From Dethiosulfovibrio peptidovorans DSM 11002 (GTDB taxonomy: Bacteria > Synergistota > Synergistia > Synergistales > Dethiosulfovibrionaceae), in NCBI RefSeq assembly GCF_000172975.1, contig NZ_ABTR02000001.1:186001-250000 (forward strand): a stretch of DNA of 64,000 nt. Direction: 5' to 3'. The position numbers and the translations under genes were made by a program. Within the stretch, counting starts at the first letter, position 1. Each line of letters opens with the position of its first letter. Shown here one piece after another: positions 3,428 through 10,232 of this stretch. The notes under the pieces were generated by a model that saw nothing but the letters and a program-made list of their open reading frames with translations, searched no databases and had not been told where the DNA came from.

Positions 3428-6400
3428 TTAGCTCAAAAGCCTCAACACGTTCTCGTGGGTCTGGTTCGAGTGGGCCAGAACCGACATGCCCGACTGGACC
3501 AGTATATTAAGCTTTGTGAACTCCATCATCTCCTTGGCCAGATCTGCGTCCACGATCCTTGATCTGGAGGCGGTCAGGTTCAAAGACGCCGTGTCCAGGT
3601 TGGTTATGGTGTGCTCCAGACGGTTTATCTGGGCTCCTATTATCGCTCTTTGAGACGAGACAGAGTCGAGAGCGCTGTCCAACACTGTTATACTCCTTGC
3701 GGCCTCTTCCCTGGTCCTCACGTCCAGACCGTCTATTCCAAGGGCTTCTGAGGACATATCTCCCAGATGAAGATCGACGTCCTCCCCCTCGTTGGCTCCT
3801 ATCTGAAGGAAGGCAGAATTGTCCGCCAGATGAACGTAATGTTCGAATACCGAGTTACGATCGCCCTCGAAGGTTCCTCTTCCATCGTTGTAGACCACCC
3901 GGTTCAGCCCTATATCGCCTGATATATCTAGGGAGATGCCATCGGCTATTACAGCGGAGATTCTGTCACCAGCCTGAACTTTCGTGCCGCTGGAGACGGT
4001 CTTCCCGTTGTGAGCATCCGATACGGTCAATCGGAACTGCGCTTCCTCGGCCTCCTGGATTGTGGCAAAACCCAGAGCCTTCATCAGTTCCTCGCTTCCG
4101 TAAAAATGAAGCTGTTTATCCTTTCCTGATATCACCGAATGGGCCAAAAGAGTCGAGACCACCGACTCGTTCGCACTCTCTCCGGAGACTTTGTTGACGA
4201 ACTGGAGTATCTCATTTTTATCCCTCTCGTTCATCAGGCCGGGACTATAGCCGTAGGGCACAGTGTCATCCTCGTCTCTCAACTGTCCGTCGTTTTGCAT
4301 CATCAACTTCAACCATATCTGCTCGGAAATATCCTCCGCTAGCTTGCCGACCTCCGCCGTAGAGCCAAGAGACACGGATATCTCTCGGTCATCCTGCCGC
4401 ACGGTAAGGGATTCCATATTACCATCTAGGATATACCTTCCGTTGGCATCGTAGAACTGGGCAATATCCTCGACACGACTGTAGTAATGGGCCTTACCAG
4501 CATCCATACCTTCCTCGTATATAACATCGAAGGACAATGCGTCATCGATGACATCGTCTCCATCGGGGTGATAATCATCGAACATCAGGGACAAGGTGCC
4601 GTCCATCACCTGATTCTTATGGAAATTACCCCCAGAAGGGTTAGCTATGTTGTTGGCCAGCTGATATATCCCCAAATCTACCTTGGAATTATCCAATACT
4701 CCCTCGTCGAATCGGAAGGCATGGGGCATATTAGTGCCCCTGTTGTCGGAGAACAGGTCTATCTCATCTATATCGGGCTGAAGCGCCGGGTCGGTCTGTT
4801 GGTCGTCCTCGCTTAGACCATCCTCAAAGCCACTAGCCGTCAAGGATAGGGTGAATCTGTCCCCATCGGTCCAGTTCTCGAAATCCCCCAGGGTGAACTC
4901 ATCGAAGAAGAGACCTCCGAACTCTGAATCTCTGAAAAGGACCAACGGATTCGTTACCTCCGCAGGAATGATTGGAGGCTGAACGGATGAATCCTGGGCC
5001 GTGTTAGGTCCGCAGTTCATTCCGTATTCGTCCTCCTGTACGTACCACTCGTTGCCCTCACGATCTATTACGTGTCCCTGTATCCTGAACTTCACGACCT
5101 GATTTTCCGTCTCTATGACGTCGAATATCAGGGAACCGTTGTATTTATTGTATTCCTCCGATCCGGCCTCGTTCAAAGGACCGTAGGTACCGTCAGACCT
5201 GGTACCGTAGACATAGTTTGAGTACCCTACTCCCCCGATAAAACTCTTTATGTCCTTGGTCTCGCCTTTTTCCATCTTTCCGAAATAACAACTGGTGACC
5301 AAGGCCCCGGCGGATGGCTTCGTATCGCCCTGATAGTTTATCTCCGCCGTTATCCTATGGGAACCACCGTCGTCGTTTCCAGGCTCGCCTACGGTACTCC
5401 CGGCGTTAAAGCCCCCTCCTTCGGCCTGAAGGATGAGGGTTCCGTTATAATATCCCAATCCGGGGATGTCGCTGCTACCGTTGAGAGGATCAATATAGTA
5501 GCCCAGGAGGTTCAGGTTCTTGCCGTCCTCCACTCCTTCAGCCAGACGATATTGCGCCAGAGCCCCCCAGTCTCCGGGACTATTCTGACGAAAGGGGTCC
5601 CCGTCTATGGCGATGTTGGCAGTAGACTGAAAGTTACCTGCAATGGCCGGTCCGGTGTTGACGGCATCCAATTTGGCCGCCGCCGCCACGTTTATGACGA
5701 ACTTGTCCCCCGCTTTCAGGTTGGCCGTGTCTATCTGAAGGTCGGTGAAATGAACGCCGTGCAGAGTTATGTCAGCTCCGGCCGAGAGACTAGCAAACTC
5801 CGCCGCGGTCAGCTCGTAGGGGGTCGTATCGGCAGTGGCAGGAAGCTCCGTGCCGTTTCGATCGAACCCCTTCGCCCTCACCGATAACACGCCGTTATCG
5901 AACTCGAACATCATAGACGCATTGATGTCGTTCTGCCTGTAGACCTCGGCGCTGGGTATCATGCTGGCCGGAGTTCCTCCGTTGCCGAAGTAATACGTAC
6001 TGTCCCCGGCATAATAGGAATGAGAATACCAGGAATCGACACCGGCGGTGTTGTCCCAGTACGTACCCGCTCCAGATCTCTCCCCGTAGGTAAAAGATGT
6101 ATTGCTGTCGACCGTTCCGAAATCGACGTTATGGGCAAGGCTGGCGGAACCTCCGATACCGGCAGCACTGCGGACCAACTGATTTATGGCTATTGAACTG
6201 TTGTCTAAAACCCCGTCGTTGAACGAATATGTTATCCCGTTGGTCACACCCAAATTATTCCCTGCATCGGTGTAAAGACCATCGTAGAGACTAAGCCCCA
6301 GATTATCGCTGACACCGACTACTTCCGCCTTGGTGTAGGTCATCCAAGAATCATTAGTAGCCAAATCCGAGCCATGGATATCTCCGTCGCCTATGGAGAA

Positions 6401-9259
6401 ACTATCGTAGGTAAACCCGGCGATACCCATGGCTGCTGTCACCGCTGCGGCGTTCTCAGCCGAGGTTCCGCTGCCGAAGCCACCCTCCCATATCGTCGTG
6501 GAGGCTGTACCGTTTACCCTCGCAGCGTCGGAGGCCCTGTTCCCGTCCCACGTGACCTGAACGGTCATTCTGTCGTGGGCCTGAAGGGTCTGGGAGTTTG
6601 CGACCGCTGCTCCGCTGCTCTCGGTCGAGGACCACAGGGGACCGGCCGACTCGAACAGCTTCCTGTTTGCGTCCACCACGTTTCCCTGATCCGTCCCGGA
6701 CTGGATCATCGATATCCTGCGTCGATCGGCACCGGTGGTGACGTTTGTTATGGACATACGACCGTCATGCTGCGGCGTGCCGTGCTCTGGCTGGGTCAGC
6801 CAGGCGGTGGAGAATCTGGCGTCGCCGTTTATGGCAGCGTAAGCCTCCTCCATGTTCATGCCCGTAACAGCTATGGTCGACGTCCTGTCGTAATCGAGGG
6901 CGTTTCCGTCGTCGTTGACGCCTCTGTCGGTGGTTATGGCTCCTCCCCATACCTCCGCCAGGGATCCATCGGAACCGGCTGTTATGTCTATCTTGTATCC
7001 CGAAATTAAGCCGTTGGAGAGACGAACCGTCCTGTTTTGAGTGCCAGCCACAGTGGAGAACGGGTTCAGACCGTTGTTGCCGCTCAGCACATCGGCTCCC
7101 AAGGCCGTATTGATCCCGGCGTTGAGGGTAGACACAATATCCAGTGCATCTTGGTCCCCGACGTTTATGACCACGTCGTGATTAACGTAGACCTTGTCGC
7201 CGGTATTAGCGAGAAGGTTGCCCCTGTTGATGGTCATCGTGCCGGGAGTGTAGGTCCCGGTGACTAGCTCGTTTATGGATGTCCCGTTCAGGGCTACCCG
7301 ATAGTTGGTGGCGTTCGCCATGGAAAGACCGTGTAAGGGCCCAGGTCCAGTCGTGGCGACGGTGAAGCCTCCACCGATGACGGCGTTTACACCGTTTTGT
7401 AGGTTAGTGGCCATGGTGCTAAGGCTATCTCCCGATGTCCCTATGGTCGTCGTCCTGCCATCCCATACGCCGGTGGACGTGTGGCTTCCCCCTCCGTTTA
7501 TGACAGAATCCAGGGACAGCTCTCCGGCAACGTCGCCCGCCGTGGTTACTGTGACGTCGTAGTTCTGGTGACCCGTCACGACGACATTGCCCTGGACCGC
7601 TCCTCCTCCTGCAACGGCAGCGGAAAAAGCGCTGGACGGCGCTCCCGTTATGGTCGTTGCGATGTTGGACAGGGTCATGTTGTTGAGGTTGCTCGTGAAG
7701 GTCCTGTTGTAGTCCCTGGCGGTTCCGTCGCGGATCGCACCGTTATTGATATTACCGTTAAGTCCCAGGCCATGGGCTCCGACCCCGTTTTCGGTCACGG
7801 TCAGAGCTCCTCCTGTGGAATTTTGTAGCCTTATGTACCTGGTATCTCCCGCTCCTTGGACCGACGCTGAAAATCCTGCTATCCCCGCTCCGTTGATCGC
7901 TCCCGCTATGCCGTCCATGTCCATGCCGCCGATGTTTACTGTGGTTCCCCCTATGTCGAGGTTGGCTCCAGCGAGGGTCCTATAGTGGGAGGTAACGTTT
8001 ATCGAATTTCCCGCCGTCGAGGTGTAGTAAGTTATTGTAGCGTCGGTATCGGTGCTGGACTGATAGTCCAGGTTGACCGTCATGGCGGCGTTTTGGTGTG
8101 TGACGTACCTCTCGGTCAGGTTTATGTCGCCCACCATGAGGTCTCTACGGTCGGTGCCGGTGACGGCGTAATGAGTGAAGAGGTTCACCCCGTTGTTGGC
8201 GTTGGTTCCGACGGACACATCGCCAGCAGCACCCGATGCGTTTACCGTTCCTCCCCCGCTCAAATCGCTTCGGTAAACCTGAGAGGAGGAAGGCGTACCA
8301 CCACCATTGGCCGTCACGGCGATCTCGGCGTCGAAGTTGGAGCCAGCCGCCCGACTGCTCATGTTGACCCCCTCCACCACTCCGGCGGCGAGGGCCGCGT
8401 CGAAGTCGGCCATCATGGGGACCCTGTCGGATAGTCTGACATCGTAAGTGCCGGGAGAGACAATGTTAGGGGTCGGTGAAACCTCGAGAGTTCCTCCGAC
8501 AGTGGGGGGATCGGAATTCGCACTTCCCACATAGTAGCGGATACCACCGAAAGGATGTTCTCTAGTTTCCAAATTCCATATACCCTCGACCATGTTTAGT
8601 GCCGTCATCCCGACGAGACCGGATCCCTCTGCGTTGTTGACCACGCTGGCCTCGTGGGTTCCGTGCTTAAGGTACATTATGTTGCTCTTTTGGATATTTT
8701 CCATGCCGTTCGAAACGGTGCTGAAGGTGAGTTTGTAGTTTCCGGCAGCGGACTTGACGTTGTTCATCACGTCCTTGGAAAGCAGATTGTCGGAGACTAC
8801 CACGCTTATGTCCGACGTGGAGGTACTCCACAGAGCTGCCATGCTGCCGTTGAGAAGTTTTTTTCTATTGAACTGGGTCTGGTTCGCTATGTCGTTTACC
8901 TGCTGCACCAGCTGTTCTATCTCGTCCTGAATGTGCCCCCTGTCTCCGGACGTTAGGACATCGTTGGCCGCCTGGACCGACAGTTCCCTCATCCTCTGGA
9001 TCATGGAATGGATCTCGTTCAGTCCGCCCTCGGCGGTCTGAAGCAACGATATTCCGTCCTGAGAGTTCATTGCGGCCCGATCCAGCCCCTTTATCTGAGC
9101 CCGCATCTTCTCCGAGATGGCCAGTCCCGCTGCGTCGTCGGAGGACGAGTTGATCCTCAGCCCCGTGGATAACCGTCTGGTGGTTTTTTCAAGACGGCCG
9201 TTGACCTTAGATAGCGCATTGTGTGAAATTAAAGAAGCTATGTTCGAATAGATACGCAA
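3428..9259 (-). CDS. Giant flagellin (about 1,943 residues) with very large central insertion
   Basis: The N-terminus (RIYSNIASLISHNAL, then LSTGLRINSSSDDAAGLAIS) and the C-terminus (ARSITVLDSALDSVSSQRA through NVLRLLS) are canonical flagellin D0/D1 helices that polymerise the filament. Between them lie roughly 1,650 Gly/Asn/Ser/Thr-rich residues in place of the usual 100-300. A flagellin hook-IN-like unit sits near residues 430-490 (GTTVNIGGMDMDGIAGAING), with related beta-rich units after it. Later segments are acidic and contain two cysteines (SCYFG and MNCGPN), which are rare in flagellins. A TTG start at 9259 is preferred: GGAGG lies eight bases before it, and the protein then begins directly at the conserved motif; an ATG at 9274 has no ribosome site. 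No HEXXH protease motif was found, so it is not a flagellinolysin. No other flagellar gene is nearby. Export is expected by the flagellar type III system. Confidence 0.9.
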   Translation of the reverse strand: MRIYSNIASLISHNALSKVNGRLEKTTRRLSTGLRINSSSDDAAGLAISEKMRAQIKGLDRAAMNSQDGISLLQTAEGGLNEIHSMIQRMRELSVQAANDVLTSGDRGHIQDEIEQLVQQVNDIANQTQFNRKKLLNGSMAALWSTSTSDISVVVSDNLLSKDVMNNVKSAAGNYKLTFSTVSNGMENIQKSNIMYLKHGTHEASVVNNAEGSGLVGMTALNMVEGIWNLETREHPFGGIRYYVGSANSDPPTVGGTLEVSPTPNIVSPGTYDVRLSDRVPMMADFDAALAAGVVEGVNMSSRAAGSNFDAEIAVTANGGGTPSSSQVYRSDLSGGGTVNASGAAGDVSVGTNANNGVNLFTHYAVTGTDRRDLMVGDINLTERYVTHQNAAMTVNLDYQSSTDTDATITYYTSTAGNSINVTSHYRTLAGANLDIGGTTVNIGGMDMDGIAGAINGAGIAGFSASVQGAGDTRYIRLQNSTGGALTVTENGVGAHGLGLNGNINNGAIRDGTARDYNRTFTSNLNNMTLSNIATTITGAPSSAFSAAVAGGGAVQGNVVVTGHQNYDVTVTTAGDVAGELSLDSVINGGGSHTSTGVWDGRTTTIGTSGDSLSTMATNLQNGVNAVIGGGFTVATTGPGPLHGLSMANATNYRVALNGTSINELVTGTYTPGTMTINRGNLLANTGDKVYVNHDVVINVGDQDALDIVSTLNAGINTALGADVLSGNNGLNPFSTVAGTQNRTVRLSNGLISGYKIDITAGSDGSLAEVWGGAITTDRGVNDDGNALDYDRTSTIAVTGMNMEEAYAAINGDARFSTAWLTQPEHGTPQHDGRMSITNVTTGADRRRISMIQSGTDQGNVVDANRKLFESAGPLWSSTESSGAAVANSQTLQAHDRMTVQVTWDGNRASDAARVNGTASTTIWEGGFGSGTSAENAAAVTAAMGIAGFTYDSFSIGDGDIHGSDLATNDSWMTYTKAEVVGVSDNLGLSLYDGLYTDAGNNLGVTNGITYSFNDGVLDNSSIAINQLVRSAAGIGGSASLAHNVDFGTVDSNTSFTYGERSGAGTYWDNTAGVDSWYSHSYYAGDSTYYFGNGGTPASMIPSAEVYRQNDINASMMFEFDNGVLSVRAKGFDRNGTELPATADTTPYELTAAEFASLSAGADITLHGVHFTDLQIDTANLKAGDKFVINVAAAAKLDAVNTGPAIAGNFQSTANIAIDGDPFRQNSPGDWGALAQYRLAEGVEDGKNLNLLGYYIDPLNGSSDIPGLGYYNGTLILQAEGGGFNAGSTVGEPGNDDGGSHRITAEINYQGDTKPSAGALVTSCYFGKMEKGETKDIKSFIGGVGYSNYVYGTRSDGTYGPLNEAGSEEYNKYNGSLIFDVIETENQVVKFRIQGHVIDREGNEWYVQEDEYGMNCGPNTAQDSSVQPPIIPAEVTNPLVLFRDSEFGGLFFDEFTLGDFENWTDGDRFTLSLTASGFEDGLSEDDQQTDPALQPDIDEIDLFSDNRGTNMPHAFRFDEGVLDNSKVDLGIYQLANNIANPSGGNFHKNQVMDGTLSLMFDDYHPDGDDVIDDALSFDVIYEEGMDAGKAHYYSRVEDIAQFYDANGRYILDGNMESLTVRQDDREISVSLGSTAEVGKLAEDISEQIWLKLMMQNDGQLRDEDDTVPYGYSPGLMNERDKNEILQFVNKVSGESANESVVSTLLAHSVISGKDKQLHFYGSEELMKALGFATIQEAEEAQFRLTVSDAHNGKTVSSGTKVQAGDRISAVIADGISLDISGDIGLNRVVYNDGRGTFEGDRNSVFEHYVHLADNSAFLQIGANEGEDVDLHLGDMSSEALGIDGLDVRTREEAARSITVLDSALDSVSSQRAIIGAQINRLEHTITNLDTASLNLTASRSRIVDADLAKEMMEFTKLNILVQSGMSVLAHSNQTHENVLRLLS

Positions 9260-9480
9260 CCTCCACACCTCCATGCAAAAGGGCACAAGACTTCCCTGTC
9301 TCGTAGAAAACTTATAAGACTAGATAAAACGGATACGGTATATTTGTATCACTCCATCAGTTTTTCGACTACTTGAATAAGTCCTGAACTAATGGGCCGA
9401 AAGACCCTGACAAAGAAGGAATTAAGAATAGAGAGCTGCCTTCTAGTGCAAGTCAACCCTTTTCGTTTTCGGCAAAAAAA

Positions 9481-9742
9481 GCTTAAGGGTGTCTCTAAGA
9501 ACTCACGTCCAAGTTTCCTCGGAGAGGTCGTTTCGGCTCTGCCCTGTCTCGCCCAAACGTATTCCCAACCTGCCTGTTTCGTACAGACCGCCTCGGAGGG
9601 CACGTCCTGTGCCCCCTCGGCTTGGGGCGACGTCCTGTCGCCCCATTCGTACTACACGACGGCAGGTCGGAAATACGGGCTCGAATGGGCTCCTCCGAAA
9701 CGACCTCTCCGAGGACTGGAGTTTTCAGAGGTGCCCTTAAGC
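9481..9742. repeat. 262-bp imperfect palindrome (MITE-like or structured-RNA element)
   Basis: The ends are inverted copies of GCTTAAGGG followed by related CTCT-AA-ACTC sequence. The match resumes as TCGGAGAGGTCGTTTCGG in both arms (about 9519-9536 and the complement of 9695-9712) and continues inward through CGTATT-CC-ACCTGCC in both arms. The centre has two perfect hairpins, GGGCAC-loop-GTGCCC (9598-9614) and GGGGCGAC-loop-GTCGCCCC (9624-9644), both with the loop GTCCT. No transposase or convincing coding frame is inside; the frames that cross it are by-products of the palindrome. The rest of the 9287-9776 gene-free stretch is the flagellin upstream region (no clear sigma-28 site seen) and the short tail of the GNAT gene. 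Confidence 0.75.
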
Positions 9743-9776
9743 CATGAGAGAAAAGACAAATAAAGCTTTGAGCTTG

Positions 9777-10232
9777 TCATGTAATTAACGAATTCCTCTG
9801 CATCCTGATTCCATCCTCGCCGTCCCCGTAATATCCCGGCAAGGTAGCCACTTGGACGAAACCGTTTTTTTCGTAAAGAGCTCTAGCCCCTGAATTGGAG
9901 ACTCTCACGGTAAGGCCGACCCCGCGGCATCCCCACTCTTCCCCTATGGCGTAGGCGGAACAGAGAAGCTGCCCTCCGATACCGAACCTCCGCCAGTCGG
10001 ACAAGACCGCCAGTTGCATGATCCACACCAGTTTTTTTCTTCGCTCAAGGACGACAAACCCCAGGAGGGCGTCTTTTTTGAAAGCACCCATGTAGACGAT
10101 CTCTCCCGAACGGTTTCTGAGATCGTCCATCACCGACGATAAAGGCCAGGGATTCCGGTTGGAACGAAGGTCTATGTCGACTATAGCCGGACCGTCCTCC
10201 GGCCCACAAAAATCTATGTCGAAAAGGATCAT
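9777..10232 (-). CDS. GNAT-family N-acetyltransferase (RimI-like)
   Basis: A complete 151-residue GNAT enzyme expected to transfer acetyl from acetyl-CoA to an amine. Motif A is visible as QLAVLSDWRRFGIGGQLL near residues 78-95. Motif B follows, with the characteristic VRVSNSGARALYEKNGF segment (Asn, aromatic Tyr and GF) near 113-129. The size and the YEKNGF motif resemble RimI-type protein N-acetyltransferases, but the substrate cannot be assigned. AGGAGGGG lies five bases before the ATG. A purA terminator sits just upstream, so expression needs read-through or a promoter overlapping that hairpin. Confidence 0.8.
   Translation of the reverse strand: MILFDIDFCGPEDGPAIVDIDLRSNRNPWPLSSVMDDLRNRSGEIVYMGAFKKDALLGFVVLERRKKLVWIMQLAVLSDWRRFGIGGQLLCSAYAIGEEWGCRGVGLTVRVSNSGARALYEKNGFVQVATLPGYYGDGEDGIRMQRNSLIT

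Follow-up and report, generated by a model that had tools for sequence, protein, structure and literature searches.

A transposable palindrome of Dethiosulfovibrio peptidovorans with a TwoAYGGAY-like pair of GGA-loop hairpins, a candidate CsrA site

The window, a stretch of 64,000 nucleotides from the Dethiosulfovibrio peptidovorans DSM 11002 genome, contains an imperfect palindrome between two minus-strand open reading frames (ORFs), one acetyltransferase-like and one flagellin-like (Table 1). The flagellin-like ORF is far longer than ordinary flagellins and has a very long middle part. The palindrome that the first-pass annotation placed at 9481-9742 is real, and both of its arm pairs are recovered, the pair 9481-9510/9713-9742 being 77% complementary within the window. 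Compared with 200 dinucleotide shuffles, its fold reaches a z-score of -11.8 on the plus strand and -13.3 on the minus strand, with 0 of the 200 folding as well. The two central hairpins with the loop GTCCT are present as described; on the minus strand this loop reads AGGAC, a GGA loop of the CsrA type that had been missed. The inverted GCTTAAGGG at the termini is there too, but the limits drawn from it were a few bases too wide: it consists of the element end GGG plus the duplicated target TTAA, within a palindromic site, and the mobile unit is corrected from 9481-9742 to 9487-9736, or 250 bp. At a minimum of 80 aa, three ORFs overlap the palindrome, two on the plus strand (123 aa and 83 aa) and one on the minus strand (84 aa); all three are regarded as spurious.

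Table 1 Features at the palindromic locus, in positions of the window.
Feature	Positions	Strand	Basis
Flagellin-like ORF (by eye) of 1952 aa, the gene downstream on the GGA strand	3428..9286	-	ORF list
Target-site duplication TTAA, left copy	9483..9486	.	empty-site comparison and end analysis
MITE, 250 bp	9487..9736	- (GGA-loop strand)	genome copies, ends and length, empty site in G106
Terminal inverted repeat, left, GGGTGTCTCTAAGAACT	9487..9503	+	3 mismatches to GGGCATCTCTAAAAACT
Outer palindrome arm, left	9516..9554	.	79% complementary to right arm; covariation across copies
Rfam RF01731 TwoAYGGAY match	9544..9697	-	46.0 bits, gathering 43
GGA hairpin 2, loop C-AGGAC-G, 5 further perfect pairs, then interrupted stem	9591..9620	-	motif/hairpin scan and fold
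GGA hairpin 1, loop C-AGGAC-G, 8 further perfect pairs	9623..9645	-	motif/hairpin scan and fold
Outer palindrome arm, right	9677..9715	.	79% complementary to left arm; covariation across copies
Terminal inverted repeat, right, GGGCACCTCTGAAAACT on the minus strand	9720..9736	-	2 mismatches to GGGCATCTCTAAAAACT
Target-site duplication TTAA, right copy	9737..9740	.	empty-site comparison and end analysis
GNAT-like acetyltransferase ORF (by eye) of 151 aa, the gene upstream on the GGA strand	9777..10232	-	stop codon 40 bp before MITE

The palindrome is almost certainly a MITE, a non-autonomous transposable element, and it shares its ends with an IS5-family insertion sequence resident in the genome. 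Searched at the DNA level, the genome (2,576,359 bases in 3 contigs) gave 53 match rows, several of them opposite-strand duplicates or fragments, and about 24 copies are distinguished (L001-L024), some truncated, with a typical length of 250 bp. Both ends are recognisable in 15 of the 24; among those 15, the target duplication is perfect in 4, retains 3 of 4 bases in 7 and fewer in 4. A 17-bp end, GGGCATCTCTAAAAACT, is common to the MITE and to an insertion sequence (IS) of the same genome, and a search with it located eight near-identical elements (98-100%) of 1298 bp, one of which reads 1300. The single transposase frame, as examined in one copy, matches NF033581 (IS5) at 280.8 bits, against a cut-off of 140, and the Pfam domains DUF772 and DDE_Tnp_1. 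The 4-bp target duplications of the IS are perfect in 7 of the 8 copies; because fewer are intact in the MITE, the MITE family looks older than the IS copies. The MITE is thus like an IS5-family element and its derivatives in its 17-bp end and 4-bp duplication, and unlike the IS in holding a conserved RNA-type core where the IS has the transposase gene. In being short, palindromic, multicopy and intergenic it also resembles the ERIC, REP/REPIN and Correia elements, which are not known to contain paired GGA-loop hairpins.

The empty site is preserved in a sister genome, G106, in which flanks of 91% (287 bp) and 92% identity (164 bp) enclose a single TTAA and no element. In a second, G108, the aligned flank pieces are 86 bp apart, so the element is absent there too, with a spacer that does not align. 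The flanks have no match in three other genomes of the genus, and G107 gives a weak match only. Most simply, the MITE inserted here after the split from the sister species, duplicating TTAA. The insertion left intact the roughly 195 bp before the flagellin-like ORF, a stretch common to G106, and a role as an attenuator of that gene was rejected on this ground. The MITE reading proposed from the sequence is therefore borne out by the genome copies, the IS with the same ends, the target duplications and the empty site. With about 24 copies in the genome and others in sister genomes, the palindrome is neither unique to this locus nor unconserved, and its multicopy occurrence rules out a free-standing sRNA gene at this locus only.

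The copies vary in build. Three short forms carry both MITE ends: L057 (G000:C1:1440813-1440929, 117 bp), L066 (G000:C1:660086-660165, 80 bp) and G000:C1:1705683-1705740 (58 bp); the core is absent from L057 and L066 on reading of their sequences. The hairpins are lost or fused in copies L018, L020 and L021, while the loops are mutated in L022, as is the second loop in L023. When the alignment is inspected by eye relative to L001, at least 7 of the 24 copies (L006, L008, L010, L012, L013, L018 and L020) appear to have the core reversed with respect to their short and long subterminal parts, as if it had flipped inside the palindromic arms or the arms recombine.

Sequence and fold strongly support reading the minus-strand core as a TwoAYGGAY RNA variant, in which a long stem carries two adjacent CsrB-type GGA-loop hairpins. 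The fold places both hairpins, with GGA terminal loops, atop an outer stem, as in RF01731, and the match scores above the gathering threshold. The whole genome has 10 listed matches to this model, 9 of them above the cut-off. Hairpins of the form CA(N)GGANG with at least 4 further Watson-Crick pairs occur twice in the 64-kb window, both times in the MITE; when GGA is replaced by each of nine other trinucleotides, the same window gives 2 such hairpins with AGG, 1 with GGT and none with the remaining seven. The AYGGAY loop itself is not matched, the loops being AGGAC, five bases and thus one shorter, and for this reason the core is treated as a variant that would work like the TwoAYGGAY family and not as a typical member. 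It also differs from that family in that the RNA lies inside an element with terminal repeats and a target duplication, a setting unmentioned in the extracts of PMC2864571 and PMC4333381.

RF01731 belongs to the same Rfam clan, CL00106, as the CsrB sponge RNA RF00018, whose model was checked on E. coli MG1655; the Rfam search lists only the best family per clan, so that a weaker CsrB match would be hidden. The CAGGACG motif of the MITE loops is a further likeness: E. coli csrB contains CAGGANG nine times, one of them as CAGGACG. The MITE core is probably a CsrA-type RNA. CsrB is nevertheless one gene with many sites, whereas the MITE unit has two sites in about two dozen dispersed copies and no promoter-like site was seen. 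In the portions of the literature consulted, TwoAYGGAY was listed as probably an RNA, and probably not a cis-regulatory one, with occurrences in human gut, gammaproteobacteria and Clostridiales (Weinberg et al. 2010, PMC2864571), was proposed to bind CsrA (Gardner and Eldai 2014, PMC4333381), and was still called 'relatively unexplored' in a 2025 preprint (PMC11661157).

Conservation among the copies is highest in the hairpins. Over 20 copies of the own genome, mean pairwise identity falls from 0.94 in the hairpins through 0.88 (apical stem) and 0.81 (arms) to 0.67 at the ends; this set leaves out 4 of the 24, three with lost or fused hairpins (L018, L020, L021) and one truncated (L024). In 12 copies hand-chosen for recognisable ends and unswapped arms, a set also taken as 11 without L022, the values are 0.94-0.95, 0.885, 0.85 and 0.80. 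Were recognition by the transposase all that mattered, one would expect the opposite order, with the ends more conserved than the hairpins. Loops (0.96) are hardly more conserved than stems (0.94) inside the hairpins, so the copy set alone does not single out GGA. When the pairs predicted for the window copy are followed through 29 copies, pairing holds in 88% of cells and both sides have changed in 35 pairs, against 36-46% and 16-27 in a slid-partner control, for a structure that comes from one of the compared rows and is thereby favoured. The nine sister copies in this set were added through the Rfam model, which favours intact cores, and the own-genome copies through the whole-element DNA search. 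Changes on both sides could also arise through palindrome correction. With base-pair covariation among copies and a curated Rfam match, the structured-RNA alternative of the first-pass annotation is supported as well, and its two alternatives, MITE and structured RNA element, hold together.

The same kind of hairpin pair is found on other elements. At an E-value of 0.01, RF01731 is matched in 11 of 185 Synergistota genomes, 10 of them above the cut-off. Five are of the genus Dethiosulfovibrio and carry the same MITE by eye; the others are three genomes of genus g10, two of g6 and one of g44. RF01731 has no match in two sister genomes with CsrA, G107 and G110. The MITE of genus g10, from another Synergistota family, is a different one: it measures about 164 bp and has the ends CCTAAATCCGC and 5-bp duplications. 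Ends could be located at 8 of its 12 loci and not at the other 4, and the duplication is perfect in 6, retains 4 of 5 bases in one and is absent in one; two of the 12, L078 and L079, are apparently one locus in two genomes.

Beyond this phylum, a pattern scan of genome contigs gave at least 117 stretches, 80 loci being among these. From the 80, 20 loci were hand-picked for holding the pattern and do not form a random sample; 16 of the 19 genomes behind them match RF01731 at E 0.01 or better, 14 above the cut-off, and no match was obtained in the three behind the Rhodanobacter, Spirochaetaceae and Leptospiraceae loci. Copy numbers, which are lower bounds since limited candidates were scored per genome, rise to at least 40 in an uncultured Eubacterium sp., at least 32 in a Lachnospiraceae genome, at least 31 in Psychromonas and at least 20 in both P. 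protegens and Thalassolituus. By hand count among the matches listed, pairs within about 1 kb are outward-facing in 17 cases, same-strand in 3 and inward-facing in 0. Outward pairs lie in repeats with inverted-copy ends in P. protegens (G188) and in the Eubacterium-titled genome G196, the ends alone having been compared in P. protegens. Among 8 copies of the G196 repeat, a clear target duplication is visible by eye only in L279, with TACAGATC on both sides, and the repeat is therefore not called a proven MITE.

Repeats of about 0.6-1.2 kb with TwoAYGGAY units, often two of them outward-facing, were noted at L250-L253 and L269-L279 (G196), and further ones at L254-L257 and L280-L288 (G197, G195) and at L246-L249 and L299-L305 (P. 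protegens G188). At L309 (G017:C2:74500-79000), an ORF that by eye is O-acetylhomoserine aminocarboxypropyltransferase-like lies between two GGA-hairpin units that face outwards, about 2 kb from each other.

Of 60 model-found loci taken for folding, 9 were dropped (4 too short, 5 with the match cut by a contig end); two GGA loops form in 50 of the remaining 51, some of which are the same element in sister genomes. The free base N in the six-base ANGGAN loops of these 51 loci is A, C, G or T, and this freedom is the informative part because the RF01731 model itself favours GGA. As far as searched, it is new that the TwoAYGGAY RNA motif rides on transposable repeats: literature searches on MITEs in Synergistetes, on MITEs with CsrA and on CsrA sponges with repetitive elements, mostly at the level of listings and with supplements outside their scope, returned nothing on transposon-borne CsrA sites.

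The presumed ligand is present. The D. peptidovorans genome has one csrA match, adjoining a fliW-like ORF and downstream of a flagellar hook-junction-like ORF (both neighbours by eye). The encoded protein can be aligned with solved CsrA and RsmE-type proteins, and Leu4 and Arg44, key RNA-binding residues of CsrA, are both retained. In Synergistota, all 11 RF01731 carriers have a CsrA match (E 0.001), compared with 105 of the 174 non-carriers (p 0.0075). The three carriers of genus g10 have CsrA, and the two genomes of that genus with no CsrA match (G027, G028) also have no RF01731 match. In the family of the Lachnospiraceae bacterium G195 (298 genomes), CsrA occurs in 44 of 46 carriers and 107 of 252 non-carriers (p 1e-12), each of the two CsrA-less carriers (G343, G469) having one RF01731 match. 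In a post hoc comparison within the Lachnospiraceae sample, RF01731 is present in 11 of 21 genomes with at least 2 CsrA matches and in 33 of 130 with one (p 0.018). These statistics ignore kinship, and motility explains the association equally well, because a flagellin control is positive in 153 of the 298 genomes, nearly the same ones as CsrA, including 45 of the 46 carriers.

The reading we lean towards, taking locus, copies and relatives together, is a MITE whose TwoAYGGAY-variant core would act as a CsrA decoy or site when transcribed. The minus-strand gene that ends at 9777 would supply the transcript, read-through from it copying the GGA strand so that the core becomes part of its 3' untranslated region. 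The promoter scan, at 0 sites, counts against this reading, as do the lost, fused or mutated hairpins of some copies. One CsrA dimer could then clamp both GGA loops of the core. Each transcribed copy may serve as a small CsrA decoy or as a CsrA site for the mRNA carrying it, and the copies taken together might parallel CsrB, as a dispersed counterpart delivered by transposons. There is perhaps an even chance of a real effect in the cell that involves CsrA, and either the host or the element may benefit from the carrying of such sites by transposons.

The alternative that survives best, doubtful but still to be reckoned with, is a purely selfish MITE in which the hairpins are structural baggage of the palindrome and CsrA plays no part. 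DDE transposases of the IS5 kind are expected to need only the element ends, and copies with the core missing or the hairpins deleted persist. By simple ORF calling, the GGA strand is co-oriented with the upstream ORF in 15 of 24 copies and with the downstream ORF in 11 of 24; this lack of orientation bias to host genes gives no sign of copies being kept in a productive orientation and leaves room for a selfish element. Against it, conservation in the hairpins exceeds that in the ends, which a transposase has to recognise; the curated Rfam match of the hairpins falls in the CsrB clan; and a like pair recurs on the unrelated g10 MITE, whose ends and duplication length differ, as well as in multicopy repeats from other phyla.

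That the element is an mRNA 3'-end device, whether terminator, stabiliser or RNase III site, with incidental GGA loops, is improbable. Its fold is very stable, and the aligned stretch starts at most about 25 bp from the end of a co-oriented upstream ORF in 10 of 24 copies; in 9 of 24, however, the upstream ORF is oppositely oriented, a scan of 9250-9800 found 0 terminator-like sites, and GGA loops common to unrelated elements are left unexplained. Least probable is a part in the transposition machinery, as a DNA hairpin read by the transposase: the core is indeed the most conserved part of the MITE, but the IS with the same ends shows no RF01731 match up to E 0.05 in the one copy searched (nor does the degenerate MITE copy L022), and a like core sits on the g10 MITE, which differs in its ends and in the length of its duplication and is presumably moved by another transposase.

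Extended to the other carriers, the decoy-or-site reading becomes a tentative proposal that falls somewhat short of probable: hairpin pairs of a CsrA-binding type may be transposable regulatory cargo, carried by at least two unrelated Synergistota MITE families and by Lachnospiraceae and gammaproteobacterial repeats, forming a dispersed CsrA sponge that would grow by transposition and rewire CsrA control of neighbouring mRNAs. The surprise lies in the combination of RNA hairpins of a regulator-binding type with unrelated transposable repeats. The function of TwoAYGGAY has been a puzzle since 2010, with one CsrA-binding prediction in the literature examined. If the proposal holds, this orphan RNA family would be mainly a mobile-element family, and the outward-facing pairs often found outside Synergistota would let read-through from either side yield one CsrA-binding RNA. 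Status as transposon cargo accounts for the multicopy, patchy distribution of TwoAYGGAY. It also carries a caution, as a search for CsrB-like RNAs among flagellated bacteria with CsrA can pick up mobile repeats. In conclusion, transposition of such hairpin pairs offers a route by which the sites of a global regulator could be spread or soaked up.
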